Positions 4,237 to 29,155 of a stretch of DNA of 33,638 bases are shown in pieces. A program made the translations under genes and the position numbers. This DNA comes from Acidobacteriota bacterium (GTDB lineage Bacteria > Acidobacteriota > Vicinamibacteria > Vicinamibacterales > UBA2999): contig JAIVJN010000026.1 of NCBI GenBank assembly GCA_020200025.1, forward strand, positions 1 through 33,638. Direction: 5' to 3'. Numbering within the stretch: position 1 is the first letter of the stretch; each line of letters opens with the position of its first letter. Under the pieces are notes generated by a model. The model ran no database searches. It saw only the letters and a list, made by a program, of their open reading frames with translations, and had not been told where the DNA came from.

Positions 4237-4270
4237 TTGCCGCTTGCCGCTTGCCGCTTGCCGCTTGCCG
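4237..4270. repeat. Heptamer tandem repeat (TTGCCGC)x~4.9
   Basis: ttgccgc ttgccgc ttgccgc ttgccgc ttgccg, read directly. Confidence 0.95.
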
Positions 4271-4348
4271 TCAGTCTTGGTCCGCGCGCCAACGTGTGCA
4301 ACGATGCCCGCGCGCAAGCAGCTCGCGCCGCGGCGGTAGAATCGATCG

Positions 4349-6304
4349 ATGTCCGGCAAGCCCGCCACCTCCGCGCCACCCGATCGCCGCTACCGCCTCG
4401 AGCAGATCGACGATGCCGCCGTCGTGCAGTTGTATGCGGACGGCTTCGCGACGCTCGGCGCCGACGACAAGCGGCTCGTGTGGCATCTCTACCAAGCCGC
4501 GCTCGCCGGGCGCGACATCTATTACGACCAGCGCTACCCCCACAACCTCGCCATGCGGGACATTCTCGAAGCGATCCTCACGCATGCCGATGGTGTGGAC
4601 GACGCGGCCCTGCGCGAGATTACGCGATATACCAAGCTGTTTTGGCTGAACACCGGACCGTACAACAATCTCACCGCGCGCAAGTTCACCCTCGCGCTCG
4701 CGCCGCGGGATCTCATCGACGCGGCCGAGCAGGCGTGGCGTAACGGCGCCCGCTTCACCCTCGATCGAGGTGAATCGATCGAGGATCTGATTCGACGCTA
4801 CGAGCCGATGTTCTTCGATGCGACGTTCCAGCCGTTCGTCACCAACAAGACGCCTGGCCCGGGCCGCGATCTGCTGACCGAGAGCGCCAACAACTTCTAC
4901 CAGGGAGTGACGCTCGCCGACCTCGAGCACTTCGTCGAGCGTCATCCACTCAACTCCCGCGTCGTCAGCCGTGACGGTGCCATCGTCGAAGAGGTCTACA
5001 GGATCGGCGGCCTCTACGGCAAAGAGCTGTCGCGGGTCGTGGAGCATCTCGAGGCCGCGCTCGCCTACGCGCCGGAGTCGCTCGCGCGGGCGTTGCGGGC
5101 GCTCATCCAGTGGTACCGCAGCGGCGACGATCGCGACCGCGAGGCGCTCGATATCGCCTGGGTGCAGAACCGCGATTCGTCCGTTGACACGATGAATGGC
5201 TTCATCGAGGTCTACCTCGATGCGCGCGGGATCAAGGGCGCCTGGGAAGGCGTCGTCTACTACGTCAACCACGCGAAGACGTGGAAGATTCAGCAACTGG
5301 CCGAGCACGCGCAGTGGTTCGAGGATCACCTGCCGATCGACCCACGGTTTCGCAAGCCGACCGTGCAGGGCATCTCCGCGACGGCGATCGAGGTTGTTAT
5401 CGAAACCGGGGATTCCGGACCGATTACGCCGATCGGCGTCAACCTGCCCAACGATCAACGCATTCGCGAGGAGTACGGGAGTAAGTCCGTGTCGCTCGCC
5501 AATGTCATCGAGGCGTATGACAAGTCAACACCGGACAGCTTCCGCGAGGAGTTCTCGTGGAGCAGCGAGGAGGCGAGCCGTGCGCATCAGTGGGCGGCGT
5601 TTGCCAACGAGCTGACGACCGAGATCCACGAGGTGCTGGGCCATGGCTCGGGTCGCATGGCGGAGCACGTGACCCATCAGCCGCAAGAGCTTCTCAAGGA
5701 GCAATACTCTGCGCTCGAGGAAACGCGAGCCGACCTGGTCGCCCTCTATTTCGTCGCCGATCCATACGTGGTGGCGCTCGGGCTCGTTCCCGCGGAGCAC
5801 CATGCCGCAATCGTGCGCACCGAGTATGAGGCGTTTGCCCGAAACGCTCTCGTGCAGCTCCGGCGTGTTCGCGAGGGAAGCCAACTCGAAGAAGACCACA
5901 TGCGCAATCGGCAGGCGGTTGTGCATTGGCTGATGAGGCACAGTTGCGCGATCGAGCTGCGGCGCCGAGAGGGCAGGACGTTCTACGTGATGACCGATGT
6001 GGCGGCGTTTCGCGACGGTGTGGCGCGGCTCCTCGCCGAGGTGCAGCGCATCAAGTCGGAAGGTGACTACGCCGCCGCGCGCGGGTTCTTCGAGACTTAC
6101 GGCGTCCACTTCGACCCGGTTATCCGGGATGAGATCGTCACACGCGTCGATCGGCTGAAGCTGCCGTCGTATACCGGCTTTGTCATGCCGAAGCTCGAGC
6201 CGGTGCACGACGATCGTGGAACGATCGTCGATGTCGCCATTTCCTACCCGTGCGACTTGATGACGCAGATGCTCGAGTATTCGCAGGAGCGACGGAGGCG
6301 ATGA
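4349..6304 (+). CDS. Peptidase family M49 (dipeptidyl peptidase III-like) zinc metallopeptidase
   Basis: HEVLGHGSG (HExxxH signature of M49) followed by EETRADLVAL; 651 aa. Confidence 0.88.
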   Translation: MSGKPATSAPPDRRYRLEQIDDAAVVQLYADGFATLGADDKRLVWHLYQAALAGRDIYYDQRYPHNLAMRDILEAILTHADGVDDAALREITRYTKLFWLNTGPYNNLTARKFTLALAPRDLIDAAEQAWRNGARFTLDRGESIEDLIRRYEPMFFDATFQPFVTNKTPGPGRDLLTESANNFYQGVTLADLEHFVERHPLNSRVVSRDGAIVEEVYRIGGLYGKELSRVVEHLEAALAYAPESLARALRALIQWYRSGDDRDREALDIAWVQNRDSSVDTMNGFIEVYLDARGIKGAWEGVVYYVNHAKTWKIQQLAEHAQWFEDHLPIDPRFRKPTVQGISATAIEVVIETGDSGPITPIGVNLPNDQRIREEYGSKSVSLANVIEAYDKSTPDSFREEFSWSSEEASRAHQWAAFANELTTEIHEVLGHGSGRMAEHVTHQPQELLKEQYSALEETRADLVALYFVADPYVVALGLVPAEHHAAIVRTEYEAFARNALVQLRRVREGSQLEEDHMRNRQAVVHWLMRHSCAIELRRREGRTFYVMTDVAAFRDGVARLLAEVQRIKSEGDYAAARGFFETYGVHFDPVIRDEIVTRVDRLKLPSYTGFVMPKLEPVHDDRGTIVDVAISYPCDLMTQMLEYSQERRRR

Positions 6305-11235: not shown

Positions 11236-13854
11236 GAGCGACGGGTCTTGCGTGTACTCGAATCGCAGTTGGGCGTTGCGGCCCTGCATGCCGGGCAAGC
11301 GCAGTCGCACGTGCTTCACACCGTTCGAGCGGCCGGCCCATGCCGACATGTCCTGAAAGTACGCTTGGTTGCCGCTGCGCGGCAAGTGGCGCGGATAGTG
11401 CTGGATGTCGCCGGTCGTGAACTCTTGCTCGAACGCCTCGACGAGAACGGAGCGAAGCGTCTGGCCCGGCGTGAGGTCCGCCACCCTCAAGAAGAAGCCG
11501 TCGTAGGCCAGCACGTCGAAGTTCGGCTCGTCTTCCGTGTCATAGCAGACGTCGAACTCCACCTCCACGTAGTCCGCAGCGTTCGGGACGTTGAAGGCGG
11601 GGCTGAAGAGGCGCTCCCAGCGAACCGGCGATCCCATCGGATTGTCGTTGGCGTTCTGATGGAACGCGCCGTTCGAGGTCCCACAGAACGTGTTCGACGT
11701 CGTCCATGGGACGATGTTGGCGCCGCCACCATGGGCGGTTTGCCAGCCGAGGGGTAATGCTCCCGTTGCGACCGCATCGAAATTCTCCTCGAGCAAAGTG
11801 GTTTTCACCGGTGTGCCGGTGAACAGTGTGTGATGGAGCCGAGTCACACCATCGAGGCTGATCACCAGCAGCTCGAGCTCGATCGGCGTCCCCGCAACGA
11901 ACGTCGGCGCCAGTCGAATCGCGAACGGCAGAAATCCGTTCGCGGTTTGGCCGGGCAGAACGTTGGGATAAACCGTGATCGCCCAGGTAACTTCGACACC
12001 CGGCGTCGAGGTCCCAAGGATGCCGACAGGAAAGCGGACGGGTCTGGCGCTGATGGGATTCGTGACGTAGTTGAAGAGCGGCAGGTGCACGCCGATGGCT
12101 TCGCCAGGATCGGCGAAGGCATTGCCTCCCGTGACGGCGGTGGCGGCGCCGCGTACGGCCACCGTCGCATACGGCGTCAGATGCTCGAAGAGCGGGACGA
12201 TACGCACGACGGCGTCGGGCACCGTCAGGGCGGTGCTCGGCTGCCCGTCGGCGAAGCCTTCCGGTGGGGGGCTCGGGAGCGAGTAGGCCGCCCAGACTTG
12301 CCCGCCCGCCGCCACCATCTGGTTGTAGTCGCCCAGATTCGGCTGACTGGTGTCGTTGCCGTGCCCGGCTTTGAACGGCCGTTCTGTCAATGGACGCGGA
12401 GCCGACCACGTGCTGCCGCCATTGTCGGAAAACACGTAGCTCGTCTCGGTGCGATGCCCGCTGGTATCGACACCTTGGTCGTAGAAAAAGATCGAGACTC
12501 GGCCAGTCAGCGAGTCGACCGTTATCGTTGGGAACCACTGGGCCCGATCGTCACCAGGCCGACTGTTCACGGCGACCGGCGCGCTGAAGGTCGTTCCTCG
12601 GTCGATACTCCGCTGGAAGACGACATCGGCGCCGTCCAGCCCGTTGTTGCTGGCGTAGACGGCGTAGATATGGCCATCACGGGCGCCACCCGTGCGGTCG
12701 ACTGCCAACGCGGGCGAGTTATTGATGCGGTCGTTGCCAAGGACCTGATCCATCGTGATGAATTCTGGCGATAGCTCGATGGGCGGCTGCCATGTTTCGC
12801 CATTGTCCAACGATCGCGCGAAGGCGATGGTGTTGCCAAACCCGCCAAACACGCCGGGCGACGGGAAGCGTTCCCATGCGGCATAGACGTCGGCCGATCC
12901 TGCGGCAAAGCGCGGAATCGAGCTCTGTCCATCGGCGGCCACGCGGGAGATGATTCGGCCGTTGTCGACAGGCCAGGTGAGGCCGCCGTCAATGGAAAAC
13001 GCCGAGCGGATCTCAACCCCACCTGGCGCCGTCGCCGTGAAGTTGCTCCACGTCATGATGAGGCGCCCGGTGTCGGGATCCACATCGATAAACTCCTTGT
13101 CGGCCGCGTCGGCCGGAGCCGCGCCAACGGTGAGACCATTCGGATTGGTCGCGGGCACGACCTCGTAGGGGCCTTGCCATGTCTTGCCGCAGTCGGTCGA
13201 TCGATGCACTCCCATGGTTTGCACGGCGGTCGTGGCCGAGAACTTCCTCACGAGGATCGACGAGTAGACGAAGGTACAGCCGCCGAGATGCTTCACGTCA
13301 GGATCACCAAAGACCTGCGGGAAGATTGTGGTGCCGATGCTTTCGGTCGGCGCCGTAATCGGCAACGAACCTCCATCGGTGAAGGTGCGGCCACCGTCGC
13401 TGGAGTACATGAAGCCGGAGACCGAGGTTGGATTCAAGGCAAAGCCGCGGGTGTCGTTGAAGCCCACGACAACGAACTGTCGTGTGTGATCGATGGCGAT
13501 GGAGAGCTCGGCCTGCCCACCCGATGGACCTTCACGCAATCCAGCCGGGCAGCGCGGATCGTTCAGGCACAGATCATCATCCTCCTTGTCGTCCGATGCC
13601 TCGATGCCCGCGTCGAGACGTCCAGCCGCGTTGTCGCGGCCCGCGAGTGCTGCCGCCGCGCGTTCGGCCACGACCTCGCGCGCTCGCGCCGCAAGTTGCC
13701 CCATGGGGGACATCCGATCGTCGGTCGCTTTTGCGCGCACGGTTTGCGATGGTTGCGCGGCGGCCGGCGTGGCGATGGCGATGAGAGCGGCAAGGGTCAG
13801 CCCGAGGCAACATGCCGACCTTCCCGAGCGACGCGGCGGAAATACCATCACCAT
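11228..13854 (-). CDS. Secreted Asp-box (BNR/sialidase-like) beta-propeller protein; C-terminus truncated at a junction near 11215-11237
   Basis: Signal peptide MVMVFPPRRSGRSACCLGLTLAALIAIATPAAAQ; repeated Asp boxes SSDGGRTF, STDCGKTW, SIDGGLTW, SLDNGETW, SIDRGTTF, SDNGGSTW; C-terminal module ends ..LRFEYTQDPSLDCA, then antisense malQ. The ORF-track N-terminal extension (PHSLIPSLPHS...) is translated tandem repeat. Confidence 0.85.
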
Positions 13855-13960
13855 GGACGCCTCCTGTTGAGCCACGACCGGAACGCGGTGTGGGAGCGCG
13901 GCGAGCCTATGCCTCTCCGGGGATGGTGTCAACAGCGGCAGTAGTGTGAAGATCAAAAAT

Positions 13961-14064
13961 GAGGGAATGAGGGAGTGAGGGAGTGAGGGAATGAGGGAGT
14001 GCGGGAGTGAGGGAATGAGGGAGTGCGGGAGTGAGGGAATGAGGGAGTGCGGGAATGAAGGAGT
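13961..14064. repeat. Octamer tandem repeat, 13 units of GAGGGAGT/GAGGGAAT/GCGGGAGT
   Basis: 13 consecutive 8-mers read directly, with higher-order ~24-bp periodicity (gagggaat gagggagt gcgggagt). Confidence 0.95.
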
Positions 14065-14084
14065 CATTCCGTCACTCCTTCATT
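14054..14084. repeat. 11-bp perfect inverted repeat capping the octamer array
   Basis: AATGAAGGAGT cattccgtc ACTCCTTCATT. Confidence 0.9.
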
Positions 14085-15198: not shown

Positions 15199-15271
15199 AA
15201 CACGAAGACCACGAAGACCACCAAGGAAAGGAACTGAGGGTCGCCCTCAACCCTTCGTGTCCTTCGTGTTG
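15199..15271. terminator. Inverted word repeat between convergent genes (AACACGAAGACCACGAAG... / ...CCTTCGTGTCCTTCGTGTTG)
   Basis: Left arm 15199-15231, right arm 15252-15271; lies between the stops at 15190 (+) and 15273 (-). Confidence 0.7.
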
Positions 15272-24215: not shown

Positions 24216-24290
24216 GGGCTGGTCGGGCTAGCGGGGCTGGTGTGGCGGGTCGGGTGGGCTGGTGGGCGGAGTTCAGGCTGGCAAGGCGGT
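24216..24290. repeat. Degenerate G-rich low-complexity repeat (GGGCTGGTCGGGCTAGCGGGGCTGGTG...)
   Basis: Read directly between the DUF1015 stop and serA; same composition class as 4148-4220 and 32641-32700. Confidence 0.7.
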
Positions 24291-25478
24291 TTCGGTCGGA
24301 TGAGTGTGCTGACGGGGCTTGGGTGCGAGGTGCTCTACCAGCCCGATGCCAAAGGCGACGGTCTCGTGGTGGCGATTCGGGAGAGTGGCGCGCACGTGCT
24401 CATCGTCCGCTCGACCGAGGTCAACGCCGCCATGCTCGATGCCGGGGCCCTCTCCCTCATCGTGCGCGCCGGCGCCGGCGTCAACACCATCGACGTCGCC
24501 GGCGCGTCGACACGAGGGATCTATGTGTCGAACTGCCCGGGAAAGAACGCCGTCGCGGTCGCGGAGCTGACCCTGGCGCTCATGTTGACGATCGATCGCC
24601 GTATTCCGGACAACGTCGCGGCCCTCCGTGCCGGCGAGTGGAACAAGAAGGAGTTCTCCAAGGCCCAGGGGCTCTTCGGCCGCACGCTCGGACTGCTTGG
24701 GTTCGGATCGATTGGACAGGAAGTCGCGCGGCGGGCGCGCGCGTTCGGTATGCCGGTTCTCGTCTGGAGTCGTCGGTTTGGCACTGACCCCGCGGCCTCG
24801 AGAGCCGCCGTGGAGGAGCTCGCCGTCGAGATTGTCGCGTCGCCCGACGAGGTCGTGCGCCGCGCCGACGTCGTGAGCGTGCACCTGGCGCTCAGCACGG
24901 ACACGCGCAGTTTCGTCGGCGCCGAGCTCCTGCGGCAGATGCGGCCGGGATCGATCTTCATCAACACGGCGCGGGGCGAAGTGGTCGATTACACGGCGCT
25001 GCAAGAGGCTGTCAGCGAGCGTCGCCTGCGCGTCGGGCTCGACGTCTTTGCCAACGAGCCGACATCGGCGTCCGGCGCCTTCAGCCCGCCCATCGTCGCG
25101 ATGCCGGGCGTGTACGGCACCCACCATATCGGTGCCTCGACCGATCAGGCGCAGGAAGCCATCGCCGCCGAGGCCGTGCGTATCGTGCGGACGTTTGTCG
25201 AGACCGGCCGTGTGCCCAACGTCGTCAATCTCGCACGGAAGACGCCGGCGACGCACATGCTGGTGGTGCGGCACCGCGATCGGCCGGGCGTGCTGGCGCA
25301 CGTGTTCGAGCGCCTGCGCGACGCCGACCTGAACGTCCAGGAGACGGAGAACATCATCTTCGAAGGCGCCCAAGCGGCCGTCGCCCGCATCAACCTCGAC
25401 GGAGAGCCGACCGCCGCCACTCTGGAAGCAGTGCGATCGCGGGAAGAGGTCCTGGACTTGCAGCTTGTAAGGCTCTAA
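24240..25478 (+). CDS. serA: D-3-phosphoglycerate dehydrogenase with ACT domain; N-terminus atypical (start may be 24240 or 24301)
   Basis: VRAGAGVNTIDVAGASTRGIYVSNCPGKNAVAVAELTLALML, LGLLGFGSIGQEVARRARAFGMPV, FINTARGEVVDYTAL, HHIGASTDQAQEA, C-terminal ACT HRDRPGVLAHVFERLRDADLNVQETENIIFEG. Confidence 0.88.
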   Translation: MWRVGWAGGRSSGWQGGFGRMSVLTGLGCEVLYQPDAKGDGLVVAIRESGAHVLIVRSTEVNAAMLDAGALSLIVRAGAGVNTIDVAGASTRGIYVSNCPGKNAVAVAELTLALMLTIDRRIPDNVAALRAGEWNKKEFSKAQGLFGRTLGLLGFGSIGQEVARRARAFGMPVLVWSRRFGTDPAASRAAVEELAVEIVASPDEVVRRADVVSVHLALSTDTRSFVGAELLRQMRPGSIFINTARGEVVDYTALQEAVSERRLRVGLDVFANEPTSASGAFSPPIVAMPGVYGTHHIGASTDQAQEAIAAEAVRIVRTFVETGRVPNVVNLARKTPATHMLVVRHRDRPGVLAHVFERLRDADLNVQETENIIFEGAQAAVARINLDGEPTAATLEAVRSREEVLDLQLVRL

Positions 25479-25483
25479 CCAGG

Positions 25484-25700
25484 TGCGACAGGTGCTTTGA
25501 CCAGGTGCGACCCGTGCGAACAGGTGCTTGGGTACTTTGGTGCGAGTGCTACCGATGCGGGCACCCGAACCCAGTATCCAAGCACCTGTTGCACCCGCAC
25601 CTAAGCACCTGTCACACCCGCACCCGAGTACCCCAGCACCTGTCACATCCGCACCCGAGTACCCCAGCACCCGTCGCACCTGTCGCACCCGTTCAATCTA
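25484..25700. repeat. Large inverted word-repeat array with a 31-bp tandem unit
   Basis: Left G-strand words CAGGTGCGACAGGTGC...AACAGGTGCTTGGGTACTTTGGTGC; right complement GGCACCCGAACCCAGTATCCAAGCACCTGTT...; perfect 13-bp AACAGGTGCTTGG/CCAAGCACCTGTT. 31-bp direct units at 25606-25636 and 25637-25667 with one mismatch. Confidence 0.9.
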
Positions 25701-25716
25701 GTACAATCCCCCGGTC

Positions 25717-26784
25717 ATGGCCACGACCGTTCATCGCATCTTCAACTTCTCGGCCGGCCCGGCCGTGTTGCCGTTGCCGGTCCTCGAAGAAGCGCAGCGC
25801 GATCTCGTCTCGCTGCCAGGCGTCGGGATGTCGATCCTCGAGATCAGCCACCGCTCGAAGGCCTTCGAGGCCGTGCTGGCGAAGACCGAAGCGGACCTCC
25901 GGACGCTTGGCGGCGTACCGGATGGCTACAGGGTGCTTTTCCTGCAAGGCGGCGCGTCGTTGCAGTTCTCGATGGTCCCGCTCAATCTACTTGCCCCCGG
26001 CGCGACGGCCGATTACATCGTCACTGGCGCGTGGTCGCAGAAGGCGGTGAAAGAGGCGCAGCGGGTTGGCACGGTCCATATCGCCGGCACCACTGAGCAC
26101 GAGCAGTTCACACGTATCCCTCGACAAGACGAGCTGAGGCTGACGCCCGGCGCCGCCTACGTGCACTTCACGACGAACAACACGATTTTCGGGACCGAGT
26201 GGCAGCGCGAGCCAGACGCTGGCGCGGTACCACTCGTGGCAGATACCTCGTCGGACATGTTCAGCCGTCCGATCGATATCGCGAAGTACGGGTTGATTTA
26301 TGCCGGGGCGCAGAAGAATCTCGGACCATCCGGCGTGACCTTGGTGATCGTCCGCGACGACCTCCTCGGGCGCTCCTCGAAGTCGTTGCACACGATGCTG
26401 AGCTATGCAGTTCAGGCAGAGAACGGCTCGATGTACAACACGCCGCCGTGCTTCGGAATCTATCTGATGGGTCTTGTCGCAAAATGGGCGCTGGCGCAGG
26501 GTGGTTTGACGACCATCGGCGACACCAACGCACGCAAAGCGGCGACGCTGTACGCCGAAATCGACCGAACGGGCTTTTATCGAGGCACGGCACGCGAAGA
26601 CAGCCGCTCGCGCATGAACATCACGTTCCGGCTCCCGAACGAGGAGCTCGAGAACGTGTTCGTCAAGGAATCGACGGCCGCGGGCTTCGACGGCCTCAAA
26701 GGCCATCGCTCGGTCGGCGGCATGCGTGCATCGATCTACAACGCGTTCCCCGAAGAGGGCGTCGACAATCTCGTCGCGGCCACG
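25717..26784 (+). CDS. serC: Phosphoserine aminotransferase; C-terminus lost at a junction near 26780
   Basis: IFNFSAGPAVLPLPVLEEAQRDL, GMSILEISHRSKAFE, FLQGGASLQFSMVPLNLL, HFTTNNTIFGTEW, SSDMFSRPIDIAKYGLIYAGAQKNLGPSGVTLVIVR, YNTPPCFGIYLMGLVAKW, GHRSVGGMRASIYNAFPEEGVDNLVA; then antisense pcnB. Confidence 0.9.
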
Positions 26785-28143
26785 CCGACCGCGTCGGCTC
26801 CCGCGGCGACGGCCGCGCCGCTGGGGATCGGGCGGTGCTTGCGTGCCATCGCCGCCCGCGTCGGTGGGGCTGGCCGGAGCGAGGCCGCTGGCCGCTTCCA
26901 CAAAGCCGCGCCAGTGCTCGAGCACTTCGGGCGCGCGTCCGTGAATATCGAGCCACGTCAGCGCGTCCTCGAATGGACCGCGATGCATGAGCGCACGTTT
27001 GGCCCGAGGCGACGAGTCGAGCTCCAGCAATCGACGCTGCAGAGAAAGGATCTGACGCAGGCGCTCGGTGTCGCGCCGCGCCACCGGCAAAATGCCGATC
27101 ATCAACAGCGGCTCCTTCGGCGGCCGCGGACGGCCGCGCGGCGCCGGTACGGGGTCGACAATCGGCTCCGATTCGAGGTCGAACAATCCGGGCCGCCGCC
27201 GCGGCATCAACCCCAGCGGCACGAGCAGGGTGCCGAGCAGCACCGGATTGGTGAGCGTGGCAGGAATGGTTGGGAATCGTCGCCGATAGGTGTCGAGCTG
27301 AGCGAGGGCAGGCCACAAGCCATTTCCGCCGTCGCGCTCCAGCAGATCGGGCGTGACCGCTTGCAATAAGCCATGCGCGGCCAAGCCGCGAAACGTCTTC
27401 TCGGCAGCGCCCGACCGCAGCACTTTGTAGTACTCCTCGATCAGCCGCGCCGGCGAGGCAAGGGCGAGCCGCTCGCCGTGCGCACCGAGCGCGTGGACGA
27501 TGGGCTTGTCGAGCGTGAAGTCGAGGCGTGCCGCCATGGCGACCGCCCGGAACATGCGAACCGGATCTTCCTGGAATCGCTGATTCGGATCGCCGATCGA
27601 GCGGATGAGACCCGCCCTGAGATCCTCGAGTCCGCCGACATAGTCGATGATCGAGAACGTGCCGATGTCGTAGAAGAGCGCGTTCACCGTGAAGTCCCGG
27701 CGGAACGCATCTTCTTCGGGTGTGCCGAAGGTGTTGTCGTGACGGATGAGCAAGTCCTGCGAGCTCTCGTCGCCAGAATCGGTGTCCGGGGGCGGCTCTG
27801 CCGGCTCGTTCTCCGTCCCCGGCGGAACGTGCCGCCTGAACGTCGCCACCTCGATGGCTTTGTTGCCGAAGCGAACGTGCGCCAGGCGAAAGCGCCGGCC
27901 GATGATCCAGCAGTTGCGAAACAGCTTCTTGACTTGATAGGGATGCGCCGATGTCCCGATATCGAAGTCCTTGGGCCGGCGGCCGAGAAGGAGGTCGCGA
28001 ACGCTTCCGCCCACGAGGTATGCGGCGTAGTGGAACTGATGGAGCCGGTGGAGCACTTTGAGGGCATCCGGGTCGATATCCCGGCGCGAAACCGTGTGCT
28101 CGGCGCGCGGCACGATGACCGGATCAGGCATCCGGACAGTCAT
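26776..28143 (-). CDS. pcnB: Poly(A) polymerase / CCA-adding-like nucleotidyltransferase; C-terminal stop lost at a junction near 26780
   Basis: AAYLVGGSVRDLLLGRRPKDFDIGTSAHPYQVKKLFRNCWIIGRRFRLAHVRFG..IEVATFRR, LIRHDNTFGTPEEDAFRRDFTVNALFYDIGTFSIIDYVGG..DL, FQEDPVRMFRAVAMAARLDF. Ends in basic tail RRGRRRGSRRGRRGR, then antisense serC. Confidence 0.88.
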
Positions 28144-28168
28144 TGTACAGCGTGTTACCATCGCGCAG

Positions 28169-28969
28169 ATGAGGCGTGCGCTGACGGTTGCCGTGGTGCT
28201 GTGCCTGGCGACGCCAATCGTCGCCACGGCGACACGCGCCGATCTGGCGCGGGCGCGCACGCTCTACAACGAGCGCCAGTTCGACGCCGCCATCGCCTTC
28301 GCGGAATTGGCGCGTCAGACGCCGGCCACCGCCGACGCCGCGGCGGTGGTGCTGGCACGCTCGCACCTCGAACGCTATCGCGAGCGCGTCGATCCCGCAG
28401 ACCTGGCCGCCGCCCGCGCGGCCTTGGCCGTTGTCCGTCCGGTGACACTCGAATCGCGCGACCAGGTCGAGTTCCTGCTCGCCTCTGGCGCGTCCTTGTT
28501 TCTCGAAGACGAGTTTGGCGCCGCCGCCGAGCTCTTCGAGAGCGGTCTTGTCCAAGCGCAGTCGGATCCTCTGCTGCGCGACAGCATGCTCGACTGGTGG
28601 GCCAGCGCCGTCGAGCGTCACGCGGCCGGCGCCGACCGAGAATTGCGGGTGCTCGAGTTCACGCGCCTCGGCGAGCGGATGCTGCGCGAGCTGCAGAGCA
28701 ACCCGGGCTCCGCGCCGGCAGGCTATTGGGTGGTCGTGGCCGCGCGCGGGAGCGGCGATGCCCAGCTTGCGTGGAGCGCAGCCGTCGCGAGCTGGGTGCG
28801 CGCCCGCCTCGCCGGCGAACATGCCGCGATGTTGCGCGCCGACCTCGACCGCCTGGTCCAGGAGGGCATCATCCCCGACCGCGTCCGCCCGATGCCAGCC
28901 GATCAGCGCACGCAGGCCGAGCTCGACCTACGCGCCGAGTGGGAGTTGATCAAGCAGAAATGGCAATAA
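28169..28969 (+). CDS. Small secreted TPR-like protein of unknown function
   Basis: Signal peptide MRRALTVAVVLCLATPIVATATRA; helical repeats LARARTLYNERQFDAAIAFAELARQ; ends KQKWQ. Confidence 0.75.
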   Translation: MRRALTVAVVLCLATPIVATATRADLARARTLYNERQFDAAIAFAELARQTPATADAAAVVLARSHLERYRERVDPADLAAARAALAVVRPVTLESRDQVEFLLASGASLFLEDEFGAAAELFESGLVQAQSDPLLRDSMLDWWASAVERHAAGADRELRVLEFTRLGERMLRELQSNPGSAPAGYWVVVAARGSGDAQLAWSAAVASWVRARLAGEHAAMLRADLDRLVQEGIIPDRVRPMPADQRTQAELDLRAEWELIKQKWQ

Positions 28970-28984
28970 ATCCCATTGCAGATC

Positions 28985-29155
28985 TTCAGATTGCAGATTG
29001 CAGATTGATCGCAGATGTTCGATCGAAGAATCGATTGAGTCGCTTGTCTGATCGGGTCTATTGGCTCACAGGGTCCAATCGAGCGCCACCCAATCGAATC
29101 CACGAGCGTCAATCTCTCTCTGGGACAATCTGCGATCTGCAATCTGCAACCTGAA
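28985..29155. terminator. Large inverted word repeat (TTCAGATTGCAGATTGCAGATT.. / ..ATCTGCAATCTGCAACCTGAA) filling the spacer between convergent genes
   Basis: Left arm 28985-29016, right arm 29126-29155; heptamer GCAGATT repeated in opposite orientations; AATCGA-type words between the arms. Confidence 0.85.

Follow-up and report, generated by a model that had tools for sequence, protein, structure and literature searches.

Two serine biosynthetic genes of a Vicinamibacterales-like Acidobacteriota bacterium, serA and serC, follow each other in the same orientation and are separated by a spacer full of short words that recur in inverted form. An earlier note on this DNA read the spacer as an inverted array that could fold into a very large hairpin, might split the operon, and might tune the expression of serC through a variable number of units. 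This raises the question of whether the array is a private device of this gene pair or one copy of something more general. The window, i.e. the whole stretch of DNA analysed here, is 33,638 nucleotides long, and coordinates without a label refer to it.

The serA and serC genes and the signals between them

On the plus strand, the serA gene for D-3-phosphoglycerate dehydrogenase occupies positions 24240–25478, including the TAA stop codon at 25476–25478. The first start of its open reading frame (ORF) is at 24240, and the coding model places the start at 24300. The assignment relies on the Pfam domains 2-Hacid_dh and 2-Hacid_dh_C, a weak ACT match, and 58–74% identity to relatives. The serC ORF, encoding phosphoserine aminotransferase, extends on the same strand from its ATG at 25717 to 27369 and was assigned by Pfam (Aminotran_5) and by comparison with relatives. 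The homology stops at residue 353 (about 26775), and the remainder up to 27369 appears to be open-frame read-through. A convergent poly(A) polymerase-like gene (minus strand, ORF 25990–28260) likewise has a frame that is open far into serC.

Nine nucleotides 5' of the serC ATG lies TACAAT (25702–25707, plus strand), a −10-like hexamer without a −35 match, which on its sequence is only suggestive of a promoter element. A consensus scan around the serA–serC spacer returned no sigma-70-type promoter pair, and no intrinsic terminator, that is, a GC-rich stem followed by a U-tract, is present within 25300–25800. Rfam 15 gave no match above the gathering score in the window.

Anatomy and folding of the array

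The array fills positions 25480–25690 (211 bp) and starts one nucleotide past the serA stop codon. The inverted array that had been described at 25484–25700 is real, with a slightly different extent. Its left arm (25480–25550, plus strand) is built of GGTGC/GGTAC words (CAGGTGCGACAGGTGCTTTGACCAGGTGCGACCCGTGCGAACAGGTGCTTGGGTACTTTGGTGCGAG...), which follow the pattern RGGTRC plus 2–4 variable bases. A loop or central part without strand assignment (25551–25572) leads to the right arm (25573–25690, minus strand), which is longer than the left arm and consists of the complementary GCACC/GTACC words. The left arm contains CAGGTGC four times and the right arm contains the complementary word four times, while GGGTACT occurs once on the left and its complement twice on the right. 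The perfect 13-bp core reported in the earlier note is exact, with its left half AACAGGTGCTTGG at 25519–25531 (plus strand) and its right half CCAAGCACCTGTT at 25578–25590 (minus strand). The same holds for the two 31-bp direct units at 25605–25635 and 25636–25666 (both minus strand), which differ from each other by one mismatch. A quadruplex motif (four G-tracts of at least three) is absent from both strands of this RGGTRC copy.

The RNA fold of the array reaches −105.2 kcal/mol, as against −69.7 kcal/mol for dinucleotide shuffles (z −7.7). The corresponding z values are −6.7 for the fold as DNA and −8.6 for the RNA of the opposite strand, and in each of the three cases none of 200 shuffles matched the native fold. 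The very large potential hairpin that had been proposed is thus confirmed, at the level of both DNA and RNA. Transcripts crossing the spacer in either direction would be expected to form a long imperfect hairpin.

A dispersed family in the source genome

A BLASTN search with the spacer gave about 45 additional matches, spread over many contigs of the source genome. Within a regular sample comprising 60 of its contigs (512 kb), RGGTRC words cluster at array density 18 times, versus no such cluster in 2 Mb of order-3 Markov sequence. The 18 clusters merge into 15 elements, which extrapolate to about 127 copies in the whole genome. This number is rough, given that the assembly comprises 501 contigs, is 82% complete, and has several arrays at contig ends. 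Arrays at or near contig ends are located at L156:9542-9679, L159:2-57, L181:7-68, L183:40-152, L188:49-257, and L194:14-68. The assembly seems to break at such arrays, and the copy number is therefore likely underestimated.

Forty elements from the regular sample and from contigs picked for their BLAST hits were examined, and 38 of them are noncoding, as against about 82% of bases being coding according to our own gene caller. The copies adjoin unrelated genes, with a median distance of 17 nt to the nearest one, and the orientations of the flanking genes (++ 13, −+ 9, +− 7, −− 5) are much like those of ordinary spacers. The G-rich arm comes first in every one of the 22 two-armed copies, and all but two of these fold with z below −3; one-armed copies also exist. 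Within this family, G outnumbers C in the 5' arm in 24 of 26 cases, and the words are mostly spaced 8–10 nt apart.

The arms of a given copy complement one another no better than arms taken from different copies do (44.7 versus 43.9; permutation p = 0.33), and a locus-specific co-evolution of the arms is thus unsupported in the RGGTRC family. The complementarity thus stems from a common polarised vocabulary and not from recent pairing locus by locus. Conserved loops are likewise unsupported, the loops being unrelated between copies. Altogether, the array looks like part of a genome-wide repeat phenomenon and not like a private serC switch.

Arrays of other words

De novo scanning uncovered arrays of other words in the source genome, some of them inside the window, and in relatives. 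At D ≥ 4, this detection gives many chance hits in GC-rich coding DNA, and only hits with D ≥ 5 or in noncoding DNA were used. Within the window, an inverted array at 13960–14078 has about ten TGAGGGA(A/G) units followed by TCATTCCGTCACTCC at the right, and a CACGAAG inverted element at 15201–15268 comprises two words, the loop GAACTGAGGGTCGCCCTCAACC, two complementary words, and a TTGTC end. A TTGCCGC array of five tandem units with a weak partner lies at 4237–4361, and a GCAGATT array at 28978–29147.

The sampled contigs of the source genome contain about 15 CACGAAG elements. Among 247 Acidobacteriota genomes, CACGAAG..CTTCGTG has 19 strict matches in the source genome and a few in six others, counts that include overlapping matches, and the reverse polarity has none in these 247 genomes. 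Many CACGAAG copies of the source genome have the ends GACAACACGAAG...CTTCGTGTTGTC in common, and some have the loop GAGGG..GCCCTC; array ends are ACAGGTGCGAC or GACAACACGAAG. A different dispersed hairpin, GCAACCGGGTTGCTCTC..GAGAGCAACCCGGTTGC, occurs at L137:16705-16793 and in L009 (about 1281–1510), once nested within a CACGAAG element. L101:344-491 contains four irregularly spaced copies of GGCTCACCCCGTGAGCC, a palindromic repeat of a further type.

Relatives have the same architecture with other words, such as CACGAAG, GTCCAA, ATTGCC, and CAGTAG. Examination of 80 serA-containing loci of other genomes yielded 41 noncoding inverted arrays, a set that leaves out seven hits judged by eye as coding or non-word-array. 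In relatives, arms of the same element match with a mean score of 48.7, as against 11.8 for arms of other elements, and the own partner surpasses every other element of the same genome in 17 of 19 cases. The best period in the wider class is 7 or 14 in 38 of 61 elements, followed by 8 and 9. Polarity is kept in 58 of 59 related word pairs, and in relatives G outnumbers C in the 5' arm of 35 of 39 elements. Since words are shared by descent, neither count can be taken as fully independent. As controls, 50 kb of E. coli DNA contained no hit at D ≥ 5, and loci labelled as other phyla (116 kb in all) yielded a single candidate hit. −10 hexamers are located just 3' of 3 of 13 arrays, compared with 0.05–0.23 in other classes.

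Locus L065 has three GATTTTA arrays within 11 kb (844–930, 5829–5947, and 11313–11415), which have the loop GATTGGAAGAAGCGGAAAGCTTTTAAATC in common; two are in the same orientation and one is inverted. This arrangement suggests a local dispersal of whole elements.

Turnover at orthologous spacers

Of 35 relatives, 15 have serA and serC at most 15 nt apart or overlapping. An array is missing from this spacer in most relatives, and those that have one use different words, namely TAGGTCC (L032), AGGAGCT (L053), and CACGAAG-like words (L050, L051). Upstream of serA, ten stringent arrays (k = 8, D ≥ 4) with several vocabularies occupy the same spacer in Blastocatellia-like genomes. Relaxed settings gave hits in 20 of 30 cases there, but also in 27% of null windows, which makes this number unusable as a count.

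Some of the arrays upstream of serA can be compared directly. In L069 and L085, the serA genes of which are 95% identical, they are one 7-nt unit apart in the left arm, and the loop differs by one 7-nt block. The orthologous arrays of L087 and L097 (serA 75%) are about two units apart and have changed inter-word bases. Orthologous arrays differing by whole 7-nt units imply that copy number does change between species. The variable copy number suspected in the earlier note is therefore plausible, although it was seen in relatives and not in the source species itself.

The other functional suggestions fared differently. The potential hairpin does separate two genes that lie within 15 nt of each other or overlap in 15 of 35 relatives, but a rheostat in which the number of units tunes serC expression relative to serA is very improbable. 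The position of the array between the two genes and the variation in unit number between species would agree with such a device. However, about 127 such copies, this array among them, lie beside unrelated genes in all orientations, and at this site most relatives do without it or, in the remainder, use other words. That divergent, convergent, and co-directional spacers are used alike argues against a dedicated terminator as well as against a serC-specific device. The effect on serA–serC co-transcription is probably incidental.

Origin and possible function

We favour, at roughly an even chance, an origin as dispersed, non-coding, polarity-fixed inverted arrays that would be generated by slippage, arm-to-arm template switching, and some dispersal, with an incidental effect on serA and serC. 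In such an array, tandem near-heptameric words would form a G-richer arm, followed by a loop and a complementary arm. Replication slippage would lengthen or shorten it by whole units, and arm-to-arm copying, i.e. template switching at the hairpin, which would have to form in the cell, would build or keep one vocabulary in both arms. Copies would additionally spread from spacer to spacer and would persist, nearly neutrally, wherever genes stay undisrupted. Since within-copy and between-copy complementarity are so close in the RGGTRC family, recent arm-to-arm copying is not visible there, and this step may be limited to early or rare events. Slippage alone does not predict that a word keeps its polarity in distant genomes, which hints at dispersal or recognition of the word, and pure neutrality does not explain why arrays recur at some orthologous spacers. 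Neutrality has most difficulty with the fixed polarity, for which dispersal from common ancestors and selection on a symmetric boundary element are the alternatives.

A boundary of this kind could be a bidirectional transcription insulator or terminator, or a stabiliser of mRNA ends, that separates neighbouring transcription units in any orientation. A polymerase arriving from either side would make the G-rich arm first and then its complement, whereupon the hairpin would stall transcription or protect the upstream mRNA. This is in line with a fixed polarity that is identical for both strands, with the folding of 20 of the 22 two-armed copies, with the median of 17 nt to the nearest gene, with the parting of serA and serC, which are at most 15 nt apart in 15 of 35 relatives, and with the recurrence of different-word arrays at orthologous spacers. 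We nevertheless consider it unlikely: a U-tract or terminator match is missing within 25300–25800, gene orientations resemble those of ordinary spacers, nine copies lie between divergent genes, a setting that does not call for a terminator, and some copies have one arm. Less likely still is an Acidobacteriota-wide class of orientation-symmetric hairpins with selected architecture and polarity but replaceable words, in which the polarised hairpin marks the boundary of a transcription unit. The spacer upstream of serA in Blastocatellia-like genomes, refilled with different vocabularies, is what would be expected if the polarised hairpin were such a functional boundary.

High copy number, intergenic location, and fixed polarity would also suit a mobile hairpin element that, like a REP/BIME or MITE, is non-autonomous and relies on a transposase acting on single-stranded or duplex ends. 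The common ends of the CACGAAG copies, the loop found in some of them, and the same loop in inverse orientation in two L065 elements point in this direction. On the other hand, the genome, at 82% completeness, has a single weak and partial Y1 transposase match (PF01797), which is not flanked by arrays; by eye, no target-site duplication was seen in the flanks inspected; RGGTRC-family loops are unrelated; and words and ends vary from genome to genome. Such an element is as unlikely as the insulator. The array could also be a series of sites at which a protein recognises the word (RGGTRC in this case) in DNA or RNA, a reading that would account for the many spacer variants of a single core word and for a word polarity kept between genera. 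It is improbable, as words differ among elements of one genome and between genera, and variation is not significantly concentrated in spacer positions (7–9 nt arrays, combined p = 0.87 in the phase test of constant word against variable spacer, with low power).

Comparison with known repeat systems

Inverted word arrays of fixed polarity make up a visible share of acidobacterial spacers, and their scale, polarity, and word replacement make them of moderate interest. They offer many natural replicates, more than one vocabulary within a genome, and orthologous sites at which words have been replaced, and can be used to study the part of slippage, template switching, dispersal, and selection in shaping long bacterial hairpins, as well as the possible splitting of operons by them. 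A search of the open literature, which excluded subscription journals, found no description of such arrays in Acidobacteriota.

REP/BIME and TIR elements are associated with RAYT/TIRYT transposases, among which are acidobacterial TIR transposases (Di Nocera et al. 2013, PMC3733652). Like the arrays, REP/BIME elements are palindromic, intergenic, and present in many copies, but REPs are 20–40 bp long with GTAG or CGTC tags, whereas the word arrays measure 60–260 bp and no associated transposase was found. Length, end tags, and the search for a RAYT (Y1 transposase) gene flanked by repeats do not support membership in this group. Nor do tags, transposase, or duplications, the last judged by eye in the flanks inspected, support a MITE. 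The arrays do have complementary ends that might be compared with its terminal inverted repeats, but these ends coincide with the arms. Template switching in the form of quasi-palindrome correction is a mutational route that makes and keeps complementary arms (Monttinen and Loytynoja 2022, PMC8794818). It is a mechanism and not an element family, and alone it yields neither tandem units nor a fixed polarity.

TAACTGA direct repeats occur in Beggiatoaceae, Cyanobacteria, and Bacteroidetes with a patchy phylogeny (MacGregor 2015, PMC4679880). They are likewise multi-copy tandem heptamers between genes but differ in being almost exclusively direct and in lying mostly just upstream of start codons. 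Heterocystous cyanobacteria have STRR, or heptanucleotide, repeats, and heptamer repeats are also found in the stems of tRNA-Leu introns. By description, these are similarly degenerate heptamer arrays in spacers.

Among known systems, the convergent heptamer arrays of Xanthomonas come closest, together with related repeats of Nostoc. The GGGAATC heptamers of Xanthomonas are 89–93% intergenic, and 70–75 convergent pairs per genome form inverted repeats (Rehm et al. 2015, PMC4692102). Like the arrays described here, theirs lie between neighbours of all orientations and vary in length between species, the Nostoc repeats read GGGGA(C/T)T, and the authors found no regulatory role (PMC4692102). The acidobacterial arrays differ in having units of 7–10 nt, several vocabularies per genome, and a different phylum as their host, and the RGGTRC copy of the window has neither a canonical G-quadruplex motif nor strict 7-nt units. 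The unit length agrees for part of the wider class (best period 7 or 14 in 38 of 61 elements), the words of the window family being mostly 8–10 nt apart. The acidobacterial arrays resemble those of Xanthomonas and Nostoc as intergenic tandem short units (38 of 40 noncoding here) in many dispersed copies, and as convergent pairs with the G-rich strand first (22 of 22 here; 5' arm richer in G than C in 35 of 39 elements of relatives).
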